Shown here one piece after another: positions 4,343 to 60,773 of a stretch of 64,000 bases of DNA. The stretch covers positions 1-64,000 of the forward strand of contig JANSYQ010000011.1 of the NCBI GenBank assembly GCA_024742305.1, in the 5' to 3' direction. Origin of the DNA: a bacterium. Lineage in GTDB: Bacteria > Bacteroidota > Bacteroidia > Flavobacteriales_D > Crocinitomicaceae. The position numbers and the translations under genes were made by a program. How positions within the stretch are numbered: position 1 is the stretch's first letter; every line of letters starts with the position of its first letter. Under the pieces are notes generated by a model, which was given only the letters and a program-made list of their open reading frames with translations, searched no databases and was not told where the DNA came from.

Positions 4343-4365
4343 GCGAATGATGAGTTATGAATTAT

Positions 4366-4400
4366 GCTCCTTCGCTGTAGCTTCGGCGCAGGCGCTGAGT
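4366..4400. repeat. fragment of dispersed palindromic repeat
   Basis: CTCCTTCGCTGTAGCTTCGG resembles the arm of the long elements at 8068 and 30336 (CTCCTACATAGCG / GGAGCTACAGCGAAG). Only one arm is present. The rest of the 4343-4623 gap has no other clear feature. Confidence 0.4.
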
Positions 4401-4623
4401 TTTGAATTGTTGTTTGGTTAGAATGAGGAATAAGTTCCTTAAGCATTGAGGTCATCGAGCAGGAAGAAGATTACGCTCAGAAGGATAAGGAGCGATCACT
4501 TCGAGTGCCTCATTGAACACTCATCTATTCGTTAATCAACGCAAAGGATTGTTAAGATGTCTTAACGGAGTGCTATCGCAATGTTTGGAGCGTTTATATT
4601 GTGCCTCAAATATTCCTAATACC

Positions 4624-17801: not shown

Positions 17802-20134
17802 GCGAGACGTGTTTTCACTGTGGAGATGACATCATTGGTCGCACGATCGTTTACGATGAAAAGCAATTTTGTTGCAACGGCTGCTCCACGGTGTATCAGC
17901 TCCTTTCTGAAAATAATTTGGATAATTTTTATGCCATTGAAAAAGGTGCGGGTGTAAAACCGAAGAATGCCAACTCACATAAATATGCGTTCTTGGATGT
18001 TCCTGAAATTCGGCAAAAATATGTTACCTACGAGGACGATAAGAGTGTACACATCACGCTTTTTCTCCCAACTATTCATTGTTCCAGCTGCATTTATTTG
18101 TTAGAAAACATTCAGAAAATTGATTCGAATGTCACTTCGTGTAGCGTTAATTTTGTGCAGAAAACGGCAGCCATTATCCTGAAAAAAGAAGCGTTTTTGT
18201 CGGAGTTTGCTTTGCTGCTGGATCAAATTGGTTACGCTCCCAACTTTGGAGATAAAAAAGCGCTGCAAAAAAAGCGCAACTATCAATATTTGTACAAACT
18301 TGGTGTAGCTGGATTCGCTTTTGGAAGCATCATGCTGTGGACTTTTCCGGAGTACCTCGGAATAGAAGAAGACAATCCTGAGATTCGATCTTTTACCGCA
18401 TATCTCTCCCTGGCGGTTTCCATCCCAGTTCTACTCTACTCTGCTTCCGACTATTTAAAATCTGCTTACAAAGCGCTGAGGTTTCGCAGTTTGAATCTTG
18501 ATGTACCGATATCCATTGGAATCATCGCCTTGTATGCCCAAAGTGTGTACACCATTTTAACCGATCAGGGAACAGGCTACATGGATAGCTTCGCCGGATT
18601 TGTCTTCTTCCTTTTAATCGGGAAATGGTTTCAAAGTAAGACATACGAATCTCTGTCGTTTGAGCGTGATTACACCGCCTATTTCCCCGTGGCAGTTACG
18701 CGCGTTCAAGACGAAAAGGAGGAGATTGTTGAGATCGATAAGATTAAGGTTGGCGACCGCATTAAATTGCGCAACGAAGAGATTATTCCCTGCGATGCCG
18801 TTCTGAAATCGGACACCGTTTCTATTGATTACAGCTTTGTTACCGGAGAATCAGAACCGATACGGCTTCACGAAGGTGATTTTATTTATGCAGGTGGAAA
18901 AATCGTAGGGAAGCCGGCAATCGTTCAAGCCGAAAAAGAGAGCAATCGAAGTCAATTAACGCGTATTTGGAACGATTCCGGAGAACAAAGTCAAGAAGAA
19001 AAAGGAGATCGTCTGTCTGTTTATTTTCTCACAGGAGTTTTGATACTTGCCGCCATATCTGCCGTTCTGTGGTACTTTTTAGACATGCATCGAATCTTGG
19101 AGATCGTTGTCGCAGTGCTGATTGTTGCCTGTCCGTGTGCACTCGCCCTTTCCAAGCCCTTCACTTACGGAAACATTACACGCATTTTAGGACGGAAAGG
19201 ACTTTTTCTCAAGAATACCGAAGTTATTGAACCTCTCAATGAAACCACAGATATCGTTTTTGACAAAACGGGGACATTGACTTCTAACAAAGATCGCGAA
19301 GTTCGCTACGAAGGGCAAACGCTCGATGCAACTCAAAAACTGGCTATTTCGAGCATCACAAATGCTTCTTCTCATCCACTTTCTCGCGCAATTACCTTGT
19401 TTTTCCAGCAACAGGGCATTCATCCGGAAGCGATGGAGACATTTGAAGAAATTTCCGGAGAAGGAATTCGCGGTGTATTCAATGAAATGTCAATAATGAT
19501 GGGCAAAGCGACATTTGTTGGAGCATCATCAGCCACCACAGAAACGGAAGTACATCTGAAAATTGATGATCGTTATTTGGGCAAGTTTCAAATCCAATCT
19601 GCTTTTCGTCCTGATATTTTTAATGTCTTGCAAGAACTTGGAAAAGAAAAAGATATTCATGTGTTATCAGGCGATTCGGAAAAAGATAGATCCACCATTA
19701 TCAATTCCGTTTCTAACATAAAAGATTTGCATTTCGGGCAATCACCGGAGGATAAGAAAGACTACATTGACCACTTGCAAAATCGAGGGAAAAAAGTGTT
19801 GATGATCGGCGATGGGCTGAATGATGCCGGAGCCCTTAAAAAAGCGAATGTTGGCATCGCCATCTCAGAGGATATCTTCCGTTTTACTCCAGGTTCTAAC
19901 GCCATTATTGATGCAGATTCGCTGAGTCAGCTGCCCCAACTATTGAAAACTTCGCAATTTGCTAAAACCATATTGGGTATCTGCTATGCATTTTCTATCC
20001 TCTACAATATCGTTGGACTCACCTTTGCTATCTCGGGCGAATTAACACCGCTGATCGCGGCCATTCTCATGCCCATAAGTTCCATAACTATTGTTTTCAT
20101 TAGTACTCTTTCGGCGTATTTGAAAGGGAGGTAA
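17798..20134 (+). CDS. ccoI: cbb3-oxidase-associated copper-translocating P-type ATPase
   Basis: 778 residues. An N-terminal Cys cluster (Cys5, Cys8, Cys25, Cys26, Cys29) precedes a heavy-metal-associated domain with TIHCSSCIY. The membrane-embedded CPC motif is Cys445-Pro446-Cys447 in VACPCALALS; the phosphorylated Asp489 lies in FDKTGTLTS; MIGDGLNDAGALKKANVGIAI is the hinge. This is the FixI/CcoI type that exports copper for the CuB centre of cbb3 oxidase. It overlaps hemN by four bases and precedes ccoS, separated from it by a repeat-rich 311-base gap with a second promoter. Confidence 0.94.
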   Translation: MSETCFHCGDDIIGRTIVYDEKQFCCNGCSTVYQLLSENNLDNFYAIEKGAGVKPKNANSHKYAFLDVPEIRQKYVTYEDDKSVHITLFLPTIHCSSCIYLLENIQKIDSNVTSCSVNFVQKTAAIILKKEAFLSEFALLLDQIGYAPNFGDKKALQKKRNYQYLYKLGVAGFAFGSIMLWTFPEYLGIEEDNPEIRSFTAYLSLAVSIPVLLYSASDYLKSAYKALRFRSLNLDVPISIGIIALYAQSVYTILTDQGTGYMDSFAGFVFFLLIGKWFQSKTYESLSFERDYTAYFPVAVTRVQDEKEEIVEIDKIKVGDRIKLRNEEIIPCDAVLKSDTVSIDYSFVTGESEPIRLHEGDFIYAGGKIVGKPAIVQAEKESNRSQLTRIWNDSGEQSQEEKGDRLSVYFLTGVLILAAISAVLWYFLDMHRILEIVVAVLIVACPCALALSKPFTYGNITRILGRKGLFLKNTEVIEPLNETTDIVFDKTGTLTSNKDREVRYEGQTLDATQKLAISSITNASSHPLSRAITLFFQQQGIHPEAMETFEEISGEGIRGVFNEMSIMMGKATFVGASSATTETEVHLKIDDRYLGKFQIQSAFRPDIFNVLQELGKEKDIHVLSGDSEKDRSTIINSVSNIKDLHFGQSPEDKKDYIDHLQNRGKKVLMIGDGLNDAGALKKANVGIAISEDIFRFTPGSNAIIDADSLSQLPQLLKTSQFAKTILGICYAFSILYNIVGLTFAISGELTPLIAAILMPISSITIVFISTLSAYLKGR

Positions 20135-20138
20135 AAGT

Positions 20139-20308
20139 ACATCTCGACTCCGCTCGATGTCCTTTTAACATCTAAACTAATTGACATGAAGTACGAATTC
20201 GTTCGATGTCATTGCAAGAATCCGAACTAACCAAAGTCCATCTCGACTCCGCTCGACGTCTTTTTAACTTCCAAACCATTTGACGAACATCGAGCGGAGT
20301 CGAGATGT
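20139..20308. repeat. cluster of three short palindromic repeats
   Basis: Three 22-base copies of the short form (ACATCTCGAC-TCC-GCTCGATGT): 20139-20160 and 20238-20259 in one orientation and 20287-20308 inverted. The second copy has two changes. A diverged half-copy (GTTCGATGTCATT) lies around 20202. Together they occupy most of the gap between ccoI and ccoS and could fold as a long hairpin in RNA. Confidence 0.85.
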
Positions 20309-20375
20309 TCTGTTCATCCTACACCCCTTGATTTTAAACAAAACTGCGCCCTCCAGAGCCTCCATGACAAAAACA

Positions 20376-20418
20376 TGACAAAAGTCACCTTTTAAGGTGT
20401 AAGAGGGTCATACTTTAC
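20376..20418 (+). promoter_or_regulatory. Crp/Fnr-like dyad plus weak -7 element for ccoS-NO-Q-P
   Basis: The dyad TGAC-AAAA-GTCA is at 20376-20387 (centre 20381.5). TACTTTAC at 20411-20418 stands exactly where the -7 element stands at hemN (29.5 bases from the centre) but matches TAnnTTTG at only four of six fixed positions, as expected for an activator-dependent promoter. A preceding direct half-site (TGACAAAAA) lies at about 20365. Confidence 0.65.
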
Positions 20419-30320: not shown

Positions 30321-30426
30321 AAAAAAAACGCTGATCATCGAGCATTGCTTTTGCGAAGCTTCTCCTACATAGCGAGTATTGCGGCGAAGGAGCTACAGCG
30401 AAGCAAAGCGGAGTCGAGATGCAGCG
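30321..30426 (-). terminator. terminator with a long repeat as its loop
   Basis: Read on the minus strand, CGCTG/CAGCG plus GATG/CATC pairs enclose the 86-base dispersed repeat and are followed by nine T (complement of 30320-30328). It lies 24 bases after the stop of the lipoprotein gene. Confidence 0.6.
30336..30421. repeat. long dispersed palindromic repeat
   Basis: Starts CATCGAGCATTGC and ends GGAGTCGAGATG; the inner arms GAAGCTTCTCC and GGAGCTACAGC pair approximately. Closest relative is the complement of 8068-8170. Confidence 0.8.
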
Positions 30427-30449
30427 GCCTTTTAATTTTTCAGCATTGA

Positions 30450-32774: not shown

Positions 32775-33896
32775 ATGCCAGAAAACGCTCCGCATATTCT
32801 TATTCTGTCGTCTTGGTATCCATCCGAGAAGCAGCCTTTTTTAGGAAATTTCGTGCGTCGTCAAGCGCATCTCTTATCTCAGAAGTATCGAGTAACGGTG
32901 ATCAATTTGATCTGCTGTGAGACAATCGAGAAGAATCAGCTCTCCACTGTGAATGACGGTCAAGTTACTGAAATTCAAGCACGATATCCCAAAGGATCAC
33001 GATTATCGCGTTTAGGTAACCGATCCCGCGTTTTTAGCGACGCGTTAAAATCATTGGATAAAGTAGACATCATTTTAGGACATGTGTTACTTCCGCACGG
33101 ATGGATGTTTTTGCAGGCGCAACGCAAATTGAAATGTCCTTTAATTTGGATCGAACACGGGTCCTATTTTCGGACAGATATCCGTAGAAACTGGCATCCT
33201 AGAGAACGTATGTTACGACGAAGTTTAGTTTTGCGTGCCAATGAAATTGTGGCGGTATCAGATGTTTTACGAAAAGATATGCAACATTACATTTCCTCTA
33301 ACAATATTCAAGTCATTGGAAATCATGTTGACGAAAAACTGTTCGCATTCAAAGAAAAGCAACCTTCCGAAAGAGTCCAGTTCTTGCACGTTTCAACCTT
33401 GGACAGAAAAACGAAAAATCCGCAAGGGATTATAGATGCCTGTGTACTATTGAAAAAAGAAGGAGCTTCCTTTCATTTAACTATTGTCTCCGATGAGGAC
33501 GCAACAGAGTGGATCGAATACGCACTCAAAAAAGATGTCAGTGATTTGATTTCCTTCGAGGGTCCGAAAAAATGGAGCGAGCTACCGAAGTACTATCATC
33601 AAGCTGATGCGTTCGTTCTGAATTCTGAATACGAGACCTTTTCTATAGTACTGGCAGAAGCGCTATCCACAGGTACACCGATAATAACAACGGATGTAGG
33701 AATTTCGTCTGAAATTCCGGAAAGTGCCAAAATTCCCGTAACGAAAAACGATCCGCATTCGCTGAAAGAAGCTATAAAAGAAATATTGCAAGGTCGCACA
33801 TTTGATCATCAAACCATCGCTCATCTTGGCGAGAAATATCATTCCGGTATTATTTTGAAGAAATGGGAACAAGTAATTTCCAAGCATGTTAGATAA
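32775..33896 (+). CDS. GT4-type glycosyltransferase
   Basis: 373 residues from ATG at 32775. ILILSSWYPSEKQPFLGNFVRRQ is the N-terminal pattern of GT-B glycosyltransferases; LHVSTLDRKTKNPQGIIDA and DAFVLNSEYETFSIVLAEALSTGTPIITT (the E-x7-E region) are the C-terminal nucleotide-sugar site of family GT4. The sugar and acceptor are unknown. The end overlaps the Gre-like gene by 11 bases. Confidence 0.9.
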   Translation: MPENAPHILILSSWYPSEKQPFLGNFVRRQAHLLSQKYRVTVINLICCETIEKNQLSTVNDGQVTEIQARYPKGSRLSRLGNRSRVFSDALKSLDKVDIILGHVLLPHGWMFLQAQRKLKCPLIWIEHGSYFRTDIRRNWHPRERMLRRSLVLRANEIVAVSDVLRKDMQHYISSNNIQVIGNHVDEKLFAFKEKQPSERVQFLHVSTLDRKTKNPQGIIDACVLLKKEGASFHLTIVSDEDATEWIEYALKKDVSDLISFEGPKKWSELPKYYHQADAFVLNSEYETFSIVLAEALSTGTPIITTDVGISSEIPESAKIPVTKNDPHSLKEAIKEILQGRTFDHQTIAHLGEKYHSGIILKKWEQVISKHVR

Positions 33897-34332
33897 AGCT
33901 TCTGTTCATACCGCTGCTTTAGAGCTGGTCTCCGAAAAACTGGCTGGCATACAGCGTGAATTCGATGCTTTGCAAGAGTCCTTGATGTCTGAAACGAAAA
34001 GCTCGGCTGGCGATAAACATGAAACCGGGCGTGCCATGGCGCAATTGGAGCAAGAAAAGTTATCACGACAACTGGCTGAAACACGCAAAACCCGAGACGG
34101 ATTAAAACAAATTGATCCATCGAATACATCGACCAATATCGGTTTTGGAAGTTTGGCAAAAACAAATAGGGGTTATTTCTTCGTTTCTGTGGGAATTGGT
34201 CAGATTCAGGTAGACGGTACAAACGTTTTCTGTATAACGGCAGGAAGTCCTCTCGGTCAAAAGCTCCTGAACAGAACCACGGGAGATCAAATTGAAATGA
34301 ACGGTTTATTGATCATCGAAGAAATTGCCTAA
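33886..34332 (+). CDS. GreA/GreB-like transcription factor homologue
   Basis: 148 residues. Residues 1-80 are a coiled-coil hairpin with the tip SSAGDKHETGRAMAQLEQEKL, a pattern known from small Bacteroidota Gre-like proteins; residues 88-148 form the FKBP-like domain (CITAGSPLGQKLLNRTTGDQIEMNG). It is organised like the paa-operon protein at 13970 and shares the ITAGSP/ISAGSP core. Binding in the RNA polymerase secondary channel is inferred from the family. Translation is coupled to the glycosyltransferase gene by overlap. Confidence 0.8.
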   Translation: MLDKASVHTAALELVSEKLAGIQREFDALQESLMSETKSSAGDKHETGRAMAQLEQEKLSRQLAETRKTRDGLKQIDPSNTSTNIGFGSLAKTNRGYFFVSVGIGQIQVDGTNVFCITAGSPLGQKLLNRTTGDQIEMNGLLIIEEIA

Positions 34333-34452
34333 AAAAGTGAAGAAAATTATTTTTTTTTCATCCATCCATCTTACGATAATTACTTTTTATTCCTCTTGGA
34401 CTTCCAATAAAATAAGGGATTTCAAGAAAAATCTACTTTTTTTAATATCTCA

Positions 34453-34480
34453 GGCAACCTTTGATTTTTTAACCCCGTTG
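34453..34480 (+). promoter_or_regulatory. ECF-type promoter, first copy
   Basis: GGCAACC at 34453-34459, 16 bases, CGTTG at 34476-34480, within CAGGCAACCTTT, which recurs at 34831. The pattern AACC...CGTT is typical of ECF sigma promoters. It faces a 300-base stretch without a good gene. Confidence 0.55.
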
Positions 34481-34776
34481 ATGGGATGAGACTCACTGAC
34501 TATTTCGTTTGCGAGACTCGTGTATTCGGTTTAATCCGAAAATGAAGAACAAAACATGCATCTAACAAGATTACATAAAGCAATATCCTCGCTCCACTCA
34601 ACAACCTACATTACTACTACGATTGTGGAAGCAACAGGAACACCTGTAGATATCTGATAAGAAACTATTGGAGTTCCTGTGGCTATTGCGCTTGAACTTG
34701 AAGGAAGCATTTAAAATATTTAAGACGCCGGAGTAAAGGTTAGGTTACTCAAATTTATCTGGTATAGTTAGTAGTC
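34481..34776 (+). other. possible non-coding transcript or decayed gene between ECF promoter and hairpin
   Basis: No open frame above about 35 codons. One frame reads TTTIVEATGTPVDI, then TGA and TAA, then ETIGVPVAIALELEGSI and TAA, which looks like a short coding remnant with two internal stops, or chance. A transcript from the promoter at 34453 to the palindrome at 34777 would be about 320 bases. The region 34333-34452 before it is AT-rich with no clear feature. Confidence 0.35.
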
Positions 34777-34804
34777 GAAAGCCGTTAGAATTCTAACGGC
34801 TTTC
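34777..34804. terminator. perfect 28-base palindrome, probable bidirectional terminator
   Basis: GAAAGCCGTTAGAA followed directly by its complement TTCTAACGGCTTTC. It would form a 12-bp or longer stem in RNA from either strand. The T-tract is short, so termination efficiency is uncertain; it could also be a protein-binding site. Confidence 0.6.
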
Positions 34805-34832
34805 CTAACATTTGAACATTACTATTATGTCA

Positions 34833-34861
34833 GGCAACCTTTTTACCTTATCTTTACGTTG
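34833..34861 (+). promoter_or_regulatory. ECF-type promoter, second copy, of the sigma operon
   Basis: GGCAACC at 34833-34839, 17 bases, CGTTG at 34857-34861. A start site 5-10 bases downstream would place the lipoprotein ATG at 34886 about 16-20 bases into the message and excludes an in-frame earlier start at 34859. Confidence 0.65.
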
Positions 34862-34885: not shown

Positions 34886-35566
34886 ATGCGAAAAATCAAC
34901 TACACAATGCTTTCCATCCTAGTTATTGCCGCCATGTTATTAGGCTGTAATAAGCAAGATTGGAGTGTTACCGTAAAGTCGGAAGTCCGATGCACAACAA
35001 GTAGCAATGAAACGGAAATCGCCGGAAAATCCTTCGTCATGGATCAAGTTATGATCAACCTAGCGGAGATGACGATCACAGGTGAAAGAATCCAAAGCGA
35101 TCCTATTGAAATTACGCTCTACGGAAATGAAGACGCTGATTTCTTGAGTCCAATCGCTCTTCATCCCGTTGATATTCCCATCGGAACGTACCCTGAAATG
35201 TATTTTTCAAGTGCTGTTGTCTCAAACGGAGCACCTTCGGTAAATATCACTGGAACCTATTACTTAGGAAATGGAGACACGTATGACGTAGTAATTGCCT
35301 TAGATATCAGTCAAGATATTTCAAAGCAAATTATAGATACCGATGGATCACCGACCATTCTTATTGAAGAAAGCACTCAAAAGAATTTAAGTTTGACTTT
35401 GGATACGGATATTCTGTTTTCGGATATCAACGCCGGACTTTGGAACGCGGCGGCAGTTACCAATAATAACGGTGCTGAAACAGTGCAGGTCGACCTTTTG
35501 AATAACGAAAATATTTACAACGCCATAAGTGCTAAATTAAACGACGCTCTCATTGTTCAGTTTTAA
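34886..35566 (+). CDS. lipoprotein co-transcribed with an ECF sigma factor
   Basis: 226 residues from ATG at 34886. MRKINYTMLSILVIAAMLLGC has a lipobox with Cys21. The mature part is beta-strand rich (MDQVMINLAEMTITGERI, SVNITGTYYLGNGDTYDVVIALD) and lacks a motif I recognise; it resembles DUF4382-like or transthyretin-like lipoproteins only loosely. Four bases separate it from the sigma factor gene. Being first behind the ECF promoter, it may be the main product of the response or the sensor. Confidence 0.75.
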   Translation: MRKINYTMLSILVIAAMLLGCNKQDWSVTVKSEVRCTTSSNETEIAGKSFVMDQVMINLAEMTITGERIQSDPIEITLYGNEDADFLSPIALHPVDIPIGTYPEMYFSSAVVSNGAPSVNITGTYYLGNGDTYDVVIALDISQDISKQIIDTDGSPTILIEESTQKNLSLTLDTDILFSDINAGLWNAAAVTNNNGAETVQVDLLNNENIYNAISAKLNDALIVQF

Positions 35567-35569
35567 TCA

Positions 35570-36175
35570 ATGACAGAGAAACAACAGAAAATATTACTCA
35601 AAGGATGTCGTAATGGCAAGCCGGCTGCTCAAAAAGAGTTGTACGATCGCTATGCGAGTGATATGTTCAAAGTTTGTTTGATGTATTCTAAAGATTATGA
35701 TGCTGCCAATGATTTACTTCAGGAAGGTTTTTTGAAGGTCTTCCAAAAAATACACCTCTTCAAGTTCAAAGATCATAGCTCTTTGGGTGGGTGGATACGA
35801 ACGGTGATTGTACACAACTGTGTCGATCATTATCGCTCCGACAGTTGGAATCGGAACAAACTAGAGCTAACTGATGAAGAAACAGAAAGAGCTCAGTATC
35901 GAAACCATGAAGAAAGTGAAGAGGAGACAATTTACGACCGAGATGAATTTTTGAAAATCATCTCCTTACTTCCAGATGGATACGCATTGGTTTTGAACCT
36001 CTTCTACTTGGAAGGATATACACACAAAGAAATCGCAGAAAAACTGGAGATTACTGAAGGGACTTCGAAGTCGCAGTTATTTAAAGCGAAAAAATATTTA
36101 AGACAACTGCTCCTTGAAAATCTTGGAGACGAAGAAATCAGCAGATATGAAGGATTCGGTAGGAAAGTGGTATAA
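35570..36175 (+). CDS. ECF-type RNA polymerase sigma factor
   Basis: 201 residues. Region 2: AAQKELYDRYASDMFKVCLMY and DLLQEGFLKVFQKIHLF, with GWIRTVIVHNCVDHYR as region 2.4. Region 4: LLPDGYALVLNLFYLEGYTH, HKEIAEKLEITEGTSKSQLF helix-turn-helix. The linker between them is short and acidic. This is a Bacteroidota-type ECF factor. The two GGCAACC...CGTTG promoters upstream suggest autoregulation. Its end overlaps the next gene by 29 bases, so the anti-sigma candidate is coupled. Confidence 0.94.
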   Translation: MTEKQQKILLKGCRNGKPAAQKELYDRYASDMFKVCLMYSKDYDAANDLLQEGFLKVFQKIHLFKFKDHSSLGGWIRTVIVHNCVDHYRSDSWNRNKLELTDEETERAQYRNHEESEEETIYDRDEFLKIISLLPDGYALVLNLFYLEGYTHKEIAEKLEITEGTSKSQLFKAKKYLRQLLLENLGDEEISRYEGFGRKVV

Positions 36176-37412
36176 AGACAGAGCGGAAGAACTCAATGTT
36201 ATCCCTCCTCACGAAGCTTGGGAAAATGTTGAGAGCACAATGCAGGATTGGCCAAGACACTGGTACCAGTCTAATTTCTCGGGCATGGAATCTGAGACCG
36301 GAAAACAAAGTTGGGAGGCAATTTCTGAACAATTAGAAATTCAACGCAACGTGAAGAAGTCTCGACGTATGTTCTACATACGAACAGCATCCCTTGTGGC
36401 TGGATTGGCATTGATTCCAATGTGGATCGCTAATGTTTCAAACCTAGCGACTATTACTACTCCAAATATGAATGTTCCGACGGCAGTTGCCAACAACAAC
36501 GAAGTAGTAGCTCCGTCTAGCCCTGTGGCAGTGAATGTGGCGGTACCGACCATTCAAACGGTTCAAAATACGGCTACCACTCCATCCACAACTGCTACTC
36601 CGGAAATTATTGACATTACAACGAATACAACACCTCAAATCAATCCTGTTCTTGCCGCGAATGCTGTAGCTATGATAGAGATGAATGCAATGGAAACGCA
36701 AGAGACAATGCCATTACGCGAAGCGTTGCCAGTACTAGCTGGTTTAACACGACGCGCTGTGCCAACTTTCAACTTTACGGAACCATTGGACCTACAAGAC
36801 GAAGATGTTGCCGAGGAAACTCCGAGAAACTGGTATGTTGGACCAACAGCCATTCTAGGATCTTCCGAGTTGTTGAACCCATTGTCATTTAGAGAAGACG
36901 CAACAACATCCAATGACTTAAACTTAGCTTGGGGATTGACAGCATCAAGAAGGTTTGGTAAAAATGTATTGACTGCAGATGTATTGTTTAACGATACCAA
37001 GTCACAAATGGCCTCACTGAATTCGGAAGAAGTGACTACTTCTCTGAATTATGTAACCACTGCATTGCAGTACGAACGTGTGATTCCGTTATTCAAGTCA
37101 GCTAACAAACTAAAGCCTGAGTTAAACATCGGTGCAGGAATTTTCGGTTCTGTTCTTTCCAACTCAACTATTTTGTCAAACCAAGAGAATTCCTACTACT
37201 CTTCTTTCACGTATCGTAACTTCGATGCAGGAGGAGTATTGACAGCAGGAGGTTCTGTTCAGCTCGGACAACACTTGAGAGCAGGTGTGAATGCGCGTAT
37301 TCAATCAGGCGTTGTTAATCTATTCGAAGGACGAGAGAAAGTACCTAGCAAATTGTTTAGAACTCAGTCTCTAGCTTCAGGAATTCAGGCAAAGTTGAGC
37401 TACAATTTCTAA
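36147..37412 (+). CDS. membrane-anchored anti-sigma candidate with C-terminal beta-barrel-like domain
   Basis: 421 residues from ATG at 36147. Residues 1-78 are soluble and hold W-rich segments (PPHEAWENVESTMQDWPRHW, GKQSWEAISEQLEIQ) like those of anti-sigma/DUF-type cytoplasmic regions. A single membrane helix follows (FYIRTASLVAGLALIPMWIA). A Thr/Asn/Pro-rich linker (about 105-230) leads to about 190 residues resembling an outer-membrane beta-barrel protein (NWYVGPTAILGSS, GLTASRRFGKNVLTADVLF, HLRAGVNARIQSG, IQAKLSYNF end in aromatic). It probably binds the sigma factor and may reach the outer membrane; this is inference. Confidence 0.7.
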   Translation: MKDSVGKWYKDRAEELNVIPPHEAWENVESTMQDWPRHWYQSNFSGMESETGKQSWEAISEQLEIQRNVKKSRRMFYIRTASLVAGLALIPMWIANVSNLATITTPNMNVPTAVANNNEVVAPSSPVAVNVAVPTIQTVQNTATTPSTTATPEIIDITTNTTPQINPVLAANAVAMIEMNAMETQETMPLREALPVLAGLTRRAVPTFNFTEPLDLQDEDVAEETPRNWYVGPTAILGSSELLNPLSFREDATTSNDLNLAWGLTASRRFGKNVLTADVLFNDTKSQMASLNSEEVTTSLNYVTTALQYERVIPLFKSANKLKPELNIGAGIFGSVLSNSTILSNQENSYYSSFTYRNFDAGGVLTAGGSVQLGQHLRAGVNARIQSGVVNLFEGREKVPSKLFRTQSLASGIQAKLSYNF

Positions 37413-60699: not shown

Positions 60700-60773
60700 A
60701 AAAGACCGCATCTCGACAAGCTTGCCTTCGCGAAGCTTTAGCGAAGCAATGTTCGATGTTCGGTCTTTTTTTT
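60700..60773. terminator. bidirectional terminator with a repeat as its loop
   Basis: A 9-bp perfect stem (AAAAGACCG / CGGTCTTTT) encloses a 51-base repeat and is followed by T runs in both directions (plus strand to 60773, minus strand before 60700 weaker). It serves dnaN and possibly the convergent T9SS gene. Confidence 0.8.
60709..60759. repeat. intermediate-length dispersed palindromic repeat
   Basis: Begins CATCTCGACAAGCTTGCC and ends GTTCGATGT; 51 bases, between the 22-base short and the 86-103-base long forms. Inner arms GCGAAGCTTTAGCG are themselves palindromic. Confidence 0.8.

Follow-up and report, generated by a model that had tools for sequence, protein, structure and literature searches.

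The locus described here raises the question of what an ECF-type promoter produces when the stretch in front of it appears to hold no gene. Two closely matching promoters, P1 and P2, stand 5' of an operon for a lipoprotein-like protein, an ECF sigma factor and its anti-sigma factor; P2 leads into the operon itself and P1 into a segment between the two promoters. The genome comprises 4,090,148 bases (4.09 Mb) and is 99.86% complete, and the window, meaning the whole 64-kb stretch of DNA that was analysed, is part of its contig C16. We consider it moderately probable that P1 yields a discrete, structured noncoding RNA of ~320 bases, which would be the noncoding arm of an ECF sigma factor that regulates its own operon and has a Dma-like anti-sigma factor. 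Our confidence in this reading was lowered slightly because the segment as a whole is not more conserved than the sigma factor gene and because RNAalifold disagrees on the helix that would close the RNA.

Twin ECF-type promoters at the sigma factor locus

The same gene order is found in this genome and in two relatives, G021 and G018: a cysteine-desulfurase-like gene (a label given by eye), a glycosyltransferase gene, a gene for a 148-aa protein, the segment, and the genes for the lipoprotein, the ECF sigma factor and the anti-sigma factor. On the opposite strand, 3' of the anti-sigma gene, lies the gene for a large secreted protein, which is present as two frames in G021. All three operon genes are on the plus strand and encode a lipoprotein-like protein of 226 aa (34886-35566; its lipoprotein nature was read by eye from the N-terminus, and no Pfam family was matched at E 0.1), an ECF sigma factor of 201 aa (35570-36175; Sigma70_r2 and Sigma70_r4_2 above cut-off, together with TIGR02937) and a putative anti-sigma factor (36147-37412). 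The 148-aa protein encoded 5' of the segment (window positions 33886-34332) bears a weak likeness to the C-terminal part of GreA/GreB that falls below the cut-offs.

According to the original prediction, a promoter word is repeated at this locus and followed by CGTTG at distances of 16 and 17 bases, and both the positions and the spacings were borne out. P1 (34451-34481) and P2 (34831-34861) are both on the plus strand and share an identical -35 element, with CAGGCAACCTTT at 34451-34462 and again at 34831-34842; CGTTG follows at 34476-34480 in P1 and at 34857-34861 in P2, leaving gaps from GGCAACC of 16 and 17 bases, respectively. These are the sole two exact copies of CAGGCAACCTTT in the 4.09-Mb genome, on the same strand and 380 bases apart. 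With at most one mismatch, the word occurs at 7 places in the genome versus 42 for the reversed control and is therefore not a common word. The looser pattern GGCAACC-N14-19-CGTTG is by itself not clearly above chance in this genome (3 matches versus 2 for the reversed control), nor is it specific genome-wide when seven genomes are pooled (26 versus 15); 15 of those 26 places lie outside frames of at least 120 aa and 11 inside, an uncontrolled split. The case for two promoters is thus one of position and conservation, not of the loose motif by itself. In G021 and G018, P1 keeps AGGCAACCTTT and CCCGTTGA, and over the three genomes its invariant columns number 11 of 12 in the -35 element, 4 of 11 in the spacer and 8 of 8 in the -10 element. 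P2 is invariant in 29 of 31 columns and keeps AGGCAACCTTTTTACCTTATCTTTACGTT in all three genomes, with an A replacing the last G of CGTTG in G018. We infer that both promoters would be recognised by the adjoining sigma factor.

Further sites of this kind were seen away from the locus. A third GGCAACC-N16-CGTTG site in the same genome, whose spacer resembles that of P1 (L057, C37:56135-56162, minus strand), lies 51 bases 5' of a gene whose product is a secreted protein of 323 aa carrying two Cys-rich repeats. G021 has two additional motif sites, which precede genes for a 132-aa and a 125-aa protein, both with signal-peptide-like stretches. At most, the L057 site and the two extra G021 sites mark candidate members of the regulon.

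The sigma factor is 91% identical to its counterpart in G021 and 88% to that in G018, and more distant versions occur in G017 (60%), G004 (56%), G010 (53%) and G008 (47%). In these last four genomes the lipoprotein gene and the sigma gene stand in the same order; the anti-sigma gene is also present in G017, G010 and G008, and the G004 contig ends 3' of the sigma gene. All four distant operons have G[GA]CAACC with CGTTG, CGTTC or CGTAGG before the lipoprotein gene (some of these assigned by eye), and all four have an additional promoter copy before a gene 5' of the operon. The genes behind these extra copies encode a 519-aa secreted protein in G017, a 45-47-aa membrane protein followed by a 93-aa secreted protein in G010 and G004, and a 341-aa lipoprotein in G008. 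A promoter copy beside the operon is therefore recurrent. DNA and covariance-model searches found the RNA segment absent from all four genomes, so that in the three-species group the recurrent copy faces the proposed RNA where the distant genomes have a protein gene.

The small membrane protein of G010 (L075:3200-3337) and G004 (L076:4585-4728), with its 45-47 aa and 43% identity between the two genomes, is easily missed in annotation, and weakly related sequences occur in G003, at another place in G004 and in G021. Descent of the segment from this gene was considered and rejected: no match was found in the segment's own genome at E 0.01, and the weak match in G021 (E 0.007) lies elsewhere in that genome.

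Conserved boundaries, fold and palindrome

The proposed RNA would span 34487-34806 on the plus strand, its start placed from the -10 box of P1 and its end from the palindrome described below. Comparison among close relatives had been suggested as a check, and by this measure the segment is maintained: it occupies the corresponding position in G021 and G018, both Fluviicola-like and of the same genus group. A DNA search recovered it from 2 of 59 other genomes (2 of the 33 in the same genus), a count that leaves out a 37-base match in G039 (E 3.9e-4), and a covariance model with stricter filters gave convincing matches in 2 of 298 other genomes, with six more weak ones. All six weak matches (E 6.7e-4 to 0.08) were rejected, as none has G[AG]CAACC within 500 bases upstream; two, L062 and L063, resemble terminators in being hairpins with a T run, and another, L064, is a local intergenic repeat. 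The L064 repeat copies (1385-1440 and 1590-1640, in G157) have a stretch around CTCAAATTT in common with the RNA, probably by chance. Chance was also taken to explain 21 short BLAST places outside the three genomes, 13 of which were checked, with 11 of these 13 lying in frames of at least 100 codons. An exact 20-mer of the segment was found in two records of a genome collection that perhaps does not contain this genome, and in no viral contigs.

Conservation begins at the first -35 box, ends behind the palindrome and resumes at P2. Across the three genomes, 28 of 149 columns are invariant in the upstream spacer, 30 of 85 in the first part of the RNA region (34482-34552), 97 of 143 over 34553-34690 and 3 of 29 over 34691-34713, followed by a nearly invariant 3' block (34714-34806, plus strand; 90 of 93 columns) that includes a hairpin at 34727-34763 and the palindrome. 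Behind the palindrome the count is 6 of 24, and in the P2 leader it is 9 of 25. An alignment with cheap gaps flatters poor stretches (the upstream spacer reaches 73-76% there, although 28 of its 149 columns are invariant), and identities are therefore given with gaps counted. On this basis the final 86 bases show 96.5-98.8% identity from one species to another, more than any of the five neighbouring genes (60.7-82.0%). The segment as a whole, at 77.1-77.9%, lies above the genes for the 148-aa protein (68.9-70.5%), the lipoprotein (63.6-64.8%) and the anti-sigma factor (60.7-65.9%), level with the desulfurase-like gene (76.3-79.2%) and below the sigma gene (79.4-82.0%). By this comparison conservation is exceptional in the 3' block; in the 5' part it does not exceed that of the best genes.

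The fold is largely shared among the three species. With the palindrome included, the folding z is -5.4 in this genome and -5.6 and -3.7 in the two relatives; without it, the values are -3.3, -3.4 and only -1.1, and of 850 stretches of equal length in the window, 34 have a better fold after GC correction than the palindrome-less RNA of this genome. The strongest-folding 294-base stretch of the window is found at 20101-20394 on the minus strand (GC-corrected z -4.6). Folding each of the three sequences separately, without the palindrome and the -10 box, gives ten common pairs of a closing helix in which GACUCACUGAC (34490-34500) pairs with GUUAGUAGUC (34767-34776), as well as the hairpin at 34727-34763 and part of an internal hairpin at 34634-34680. 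In the closing helix 97% of cells pair, and two pairs vary only to G-U. The internal hairpin (CAGGAACaCC / GGaGUUCCUG, plus strand) contains two compensatory pairs. Overall, pairing holds in 95.7% of the 231 cells of the shared structure, and in four pairs both partners change, a number reached by 11 of 500 shuffles, with slid structures giving 0 or 1, for a structure that was itself derived from the same three sequences. RNAalifold, applied to a longer alignment, instead pairs the 3' strand of the closing helix internally (columns 94-102) and returns a slightly unfavourable covariation term (+0.34), and no closing helix appears when G018 is folded at full length together with the -10 region. 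Judging from these three sequences, two 5' stretches may compete for the closing-helix 3' strand.

Rfam gave a single chance match to the segment (E 1.5, far under its cut-off) and nothing at gathering score in the whole 64-kb window, and identity with 6S RNA was rejected on the lack of an Rfam match in the window.

The perfect 28-base palindrome at which the ~320-base RNA from P1 had been predicted to end is present at 34777-34804 (plus strand), with 12 pairs, an AATT loop and one compensatory pair, and it is the sole perfect hairpin in the 64-kb window with at least 9 pairs and a loop of 3-8. It may form the 3' end of the RNA. As for an intrinsic terminator, none of the three species has a U-tract behind the palindrome, and the terminator scan was empty; the drop in conservation right behind the palindrome argues for a boundary at this point. 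Elsewhere in the window, GC-rich hairpins with CTTCGC/GCGAAG cores, possibly a dispersed repeat, occur behind several genes (~4359-4402, 60713-60756 and near 30400-30430).

The main rival explanation, already among the readings first put forward, is that transcription from P1 reads through the palindrome to yield a long, structured 5' leader controlling the stability, termination or translation of the operon. Such a leader is possible because the palindrome lacks a U-tract, and the segment does lie directly 5' of the operon on the same strand. We nevertheless regard it as rather unlikely: the strongly conserved P2 stands in between, only 6 of 24 columns are invariant behind the palindrome, and the proposed pairing of 5' and 3' ends fits a self-contained RNA. 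Alternatively, the segment might be conserved as DNA, with the palindrome and its surroundings binding a regulator of P2 and any RNA being a by-product. This is improbable in our view; the palindrome does end just 26 bases before the -35 box of P2 and the 3' block is invariant in loops and stems alike, but a second conserved promoter points into the segment, conservation extends 200-300 bases away from P2, and the internal helices keep pairing through changes.

Coding potential of the segment

The segment contains no well-conserved reading frame, in agreement with the earlier impression that no convincing gene lies inside. Just one plus-strand frame of at least 8 codons has a start codon in each of the three genomes. 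It begins at ATG 34556 and measures 33 aa in this genome, 34 aa in G021 and 21 aa in G018, where a 5-base deletion shortens it. Its codon changes are mostly non-synonymous, with 2 synonymous and 10 non-synonymous between this genome and G021 and, over the first 16 codons, 1 and 4 between this genome and G018 and 0 and 4 between G021 and G018. The two in-frame stops that had been described correspond to TGA TAA at 34655-34660, behind the 33-aa frame. Five short minus-strand frames also have a start codon in each genome, and the shortest version of each is at most 22 aa. The segment is, on these counts, probably not coding. A messenger for a 33-34-aa protein translated from ATG 34556, possibly with a second function as RNA, would account for the retention of that start codon in three of three genomes, but it is very improbable given the truncated G018 frame and the preponderance of non-synonymous changes.

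Decay of a former target gene whose promoter is still active, to which the extra promoter copies before protein genes in four distant genomes and the tandem stops might point, is highly improbable against a 3' block invariant in 90 of 93 columns and a G010 small membrane protein without a match in this genome. Among the three readings of the original prediction, a sigma-dependent small RNA is thus favoured, the segment being maintained and structured with a few compensatory changes, and its conservation bounded by promoter and palindrome; the leader is possible and the decayed gene unlikely.

The anti-sigma factor and a possible noncoding arm

The AlphaFold2 model of the anti-sigma factor (36150-37409, first residue omitted) is of low confidence, with a mean pLDDT of 53.6 and a pTM of 0.43. 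It consists of helices to residue 98, no structure over residues 99-227 and eight long strands over residues 228-418, and its nearest folds in a Foldseek search are OmpA and NspA; the match of the protein to OMP_b-brl_2 is under its cut-off. On this model, and with the membrane helix judged by eye, the protein has the architecture of Dma anti-sigma factors: a helical N-terminus, a membrane helix, a disordered tether and a C-terminal barrel. Dma factors are encoded beside an ECF21 sigma factor; the neighbour here is, by its domains, an ECF sigma factor. The Dma/Das pairs of Bacteroides thetaiotaomicron, as far as the available text of that report describes them, have the same adjacent ECF sigma factor, N-terminal domain, membrane helix, long tether and C-terminal barrel (PMC13088901). 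They differ from the present locus, whose operon starts with a lipoprotein gene and would be preceded by an RNA gene; no RNA is mentioned for Dma/Das in that text (PMC13088901). The same text states that Dma anti-sigma factors of Bacteroides control their sigma factors and vesicle formation (PMC13088901).

Searches of the genome for RNA-binding partners detected no Hfq (PF17209), with 5 of 14 control genomes positive, and two RRM_1 proteins. Hfq is the partner of enterobacterial ECF-sigma-dependent sRNAs and is not required in all phyla. Because Hfq was not detectable and two RRM_1 proteins are encoded, we assume an action that is Hfq-independent and perhaps RRM-assisted. Duplex folding of the RNA with ten local 100-base stretches, each compared with 12 shuffles, brought out no convincing antisense target.

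In the noncoding-RNA reading that we favour, the Dma-like anti-sigma factor, probably spanning both membranes, would release the ECF sigma factor, and the freed sigma factor would transcribe its own operon from P2 and the RNA from P1. The 5' end of the transcript would pair with the bases immediately ahead of the 3' palindrome; the palindrome would mark the 3' end, and the RNA would then act in trans, post-transcriptionally, on mRNAs or on a protein.

This arrangement has precedents. RybB, MicA and MicL of enterobacteria are sRNAs within an ECF sigma regulon and constitute its 'noncoding arm'. FoxI and FoxJ of Fusobacterium nucleatum are, in the excerpts consulted, likewise described as sigma-E-dependent sRNAs forming an ECF 'noncoding arm' (PMC11005410). 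By these descriptions, FoxJ measures ~156 nt and acts on porin mRNAs (PMC11005410), whereas the RNA proposed here would measure ~320 nt and lie beside the sigma operon of a member of the Bacteroidota without detectable Hfq. Within the Bacteroidota, Rfp18 of Flavobacterium psychrophilum is, by its description, likewise a conserved and strongly structured RNA, and an ECF-type motif with a CGT box, SM6, is described in the same species; unlike the promoter setting here, the excerpted account ties Rfp18 to no ECF factor (PMC9723704). GibS of Bacteroides thetaiotaomicron, again compared by description, is another conserved regulatory RNA of this phylum; it carries the motif PM2, for which the portion of the report at hand has its authors suggesting a possible, unnamed alternative sigma factor (PMC7366714). 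Among the matches listed in a mostly open-access literature search, no Bacteroidota RNA was tied to a named ECF factor.

More tentatively, the noncoding arm of a Dma-type envelope response in Bacteroidota could possibly take the form of a large RNA with joined ends, or an RNA-protein particle, that operates without Hfq and not as a simple antisense, adjusting envelope proteins or vesicle formation under stress sensed by the barrel. The promoter-to-palindrome unit is small enough for direct deletion and probing, and the segment would represent a new RNA family, as it has no Rfam match. If the reading is correct, this would be, among the literature matches listed, the first Bacteroidota RNA tied to a particular ECF sigma factor. 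A conserved RNA behind an apparent sigma autopromoter would, in a genome of this phylum without detectable Hfq, add a post-transcriptional branch to Dma regulons, whose action is only partly known.
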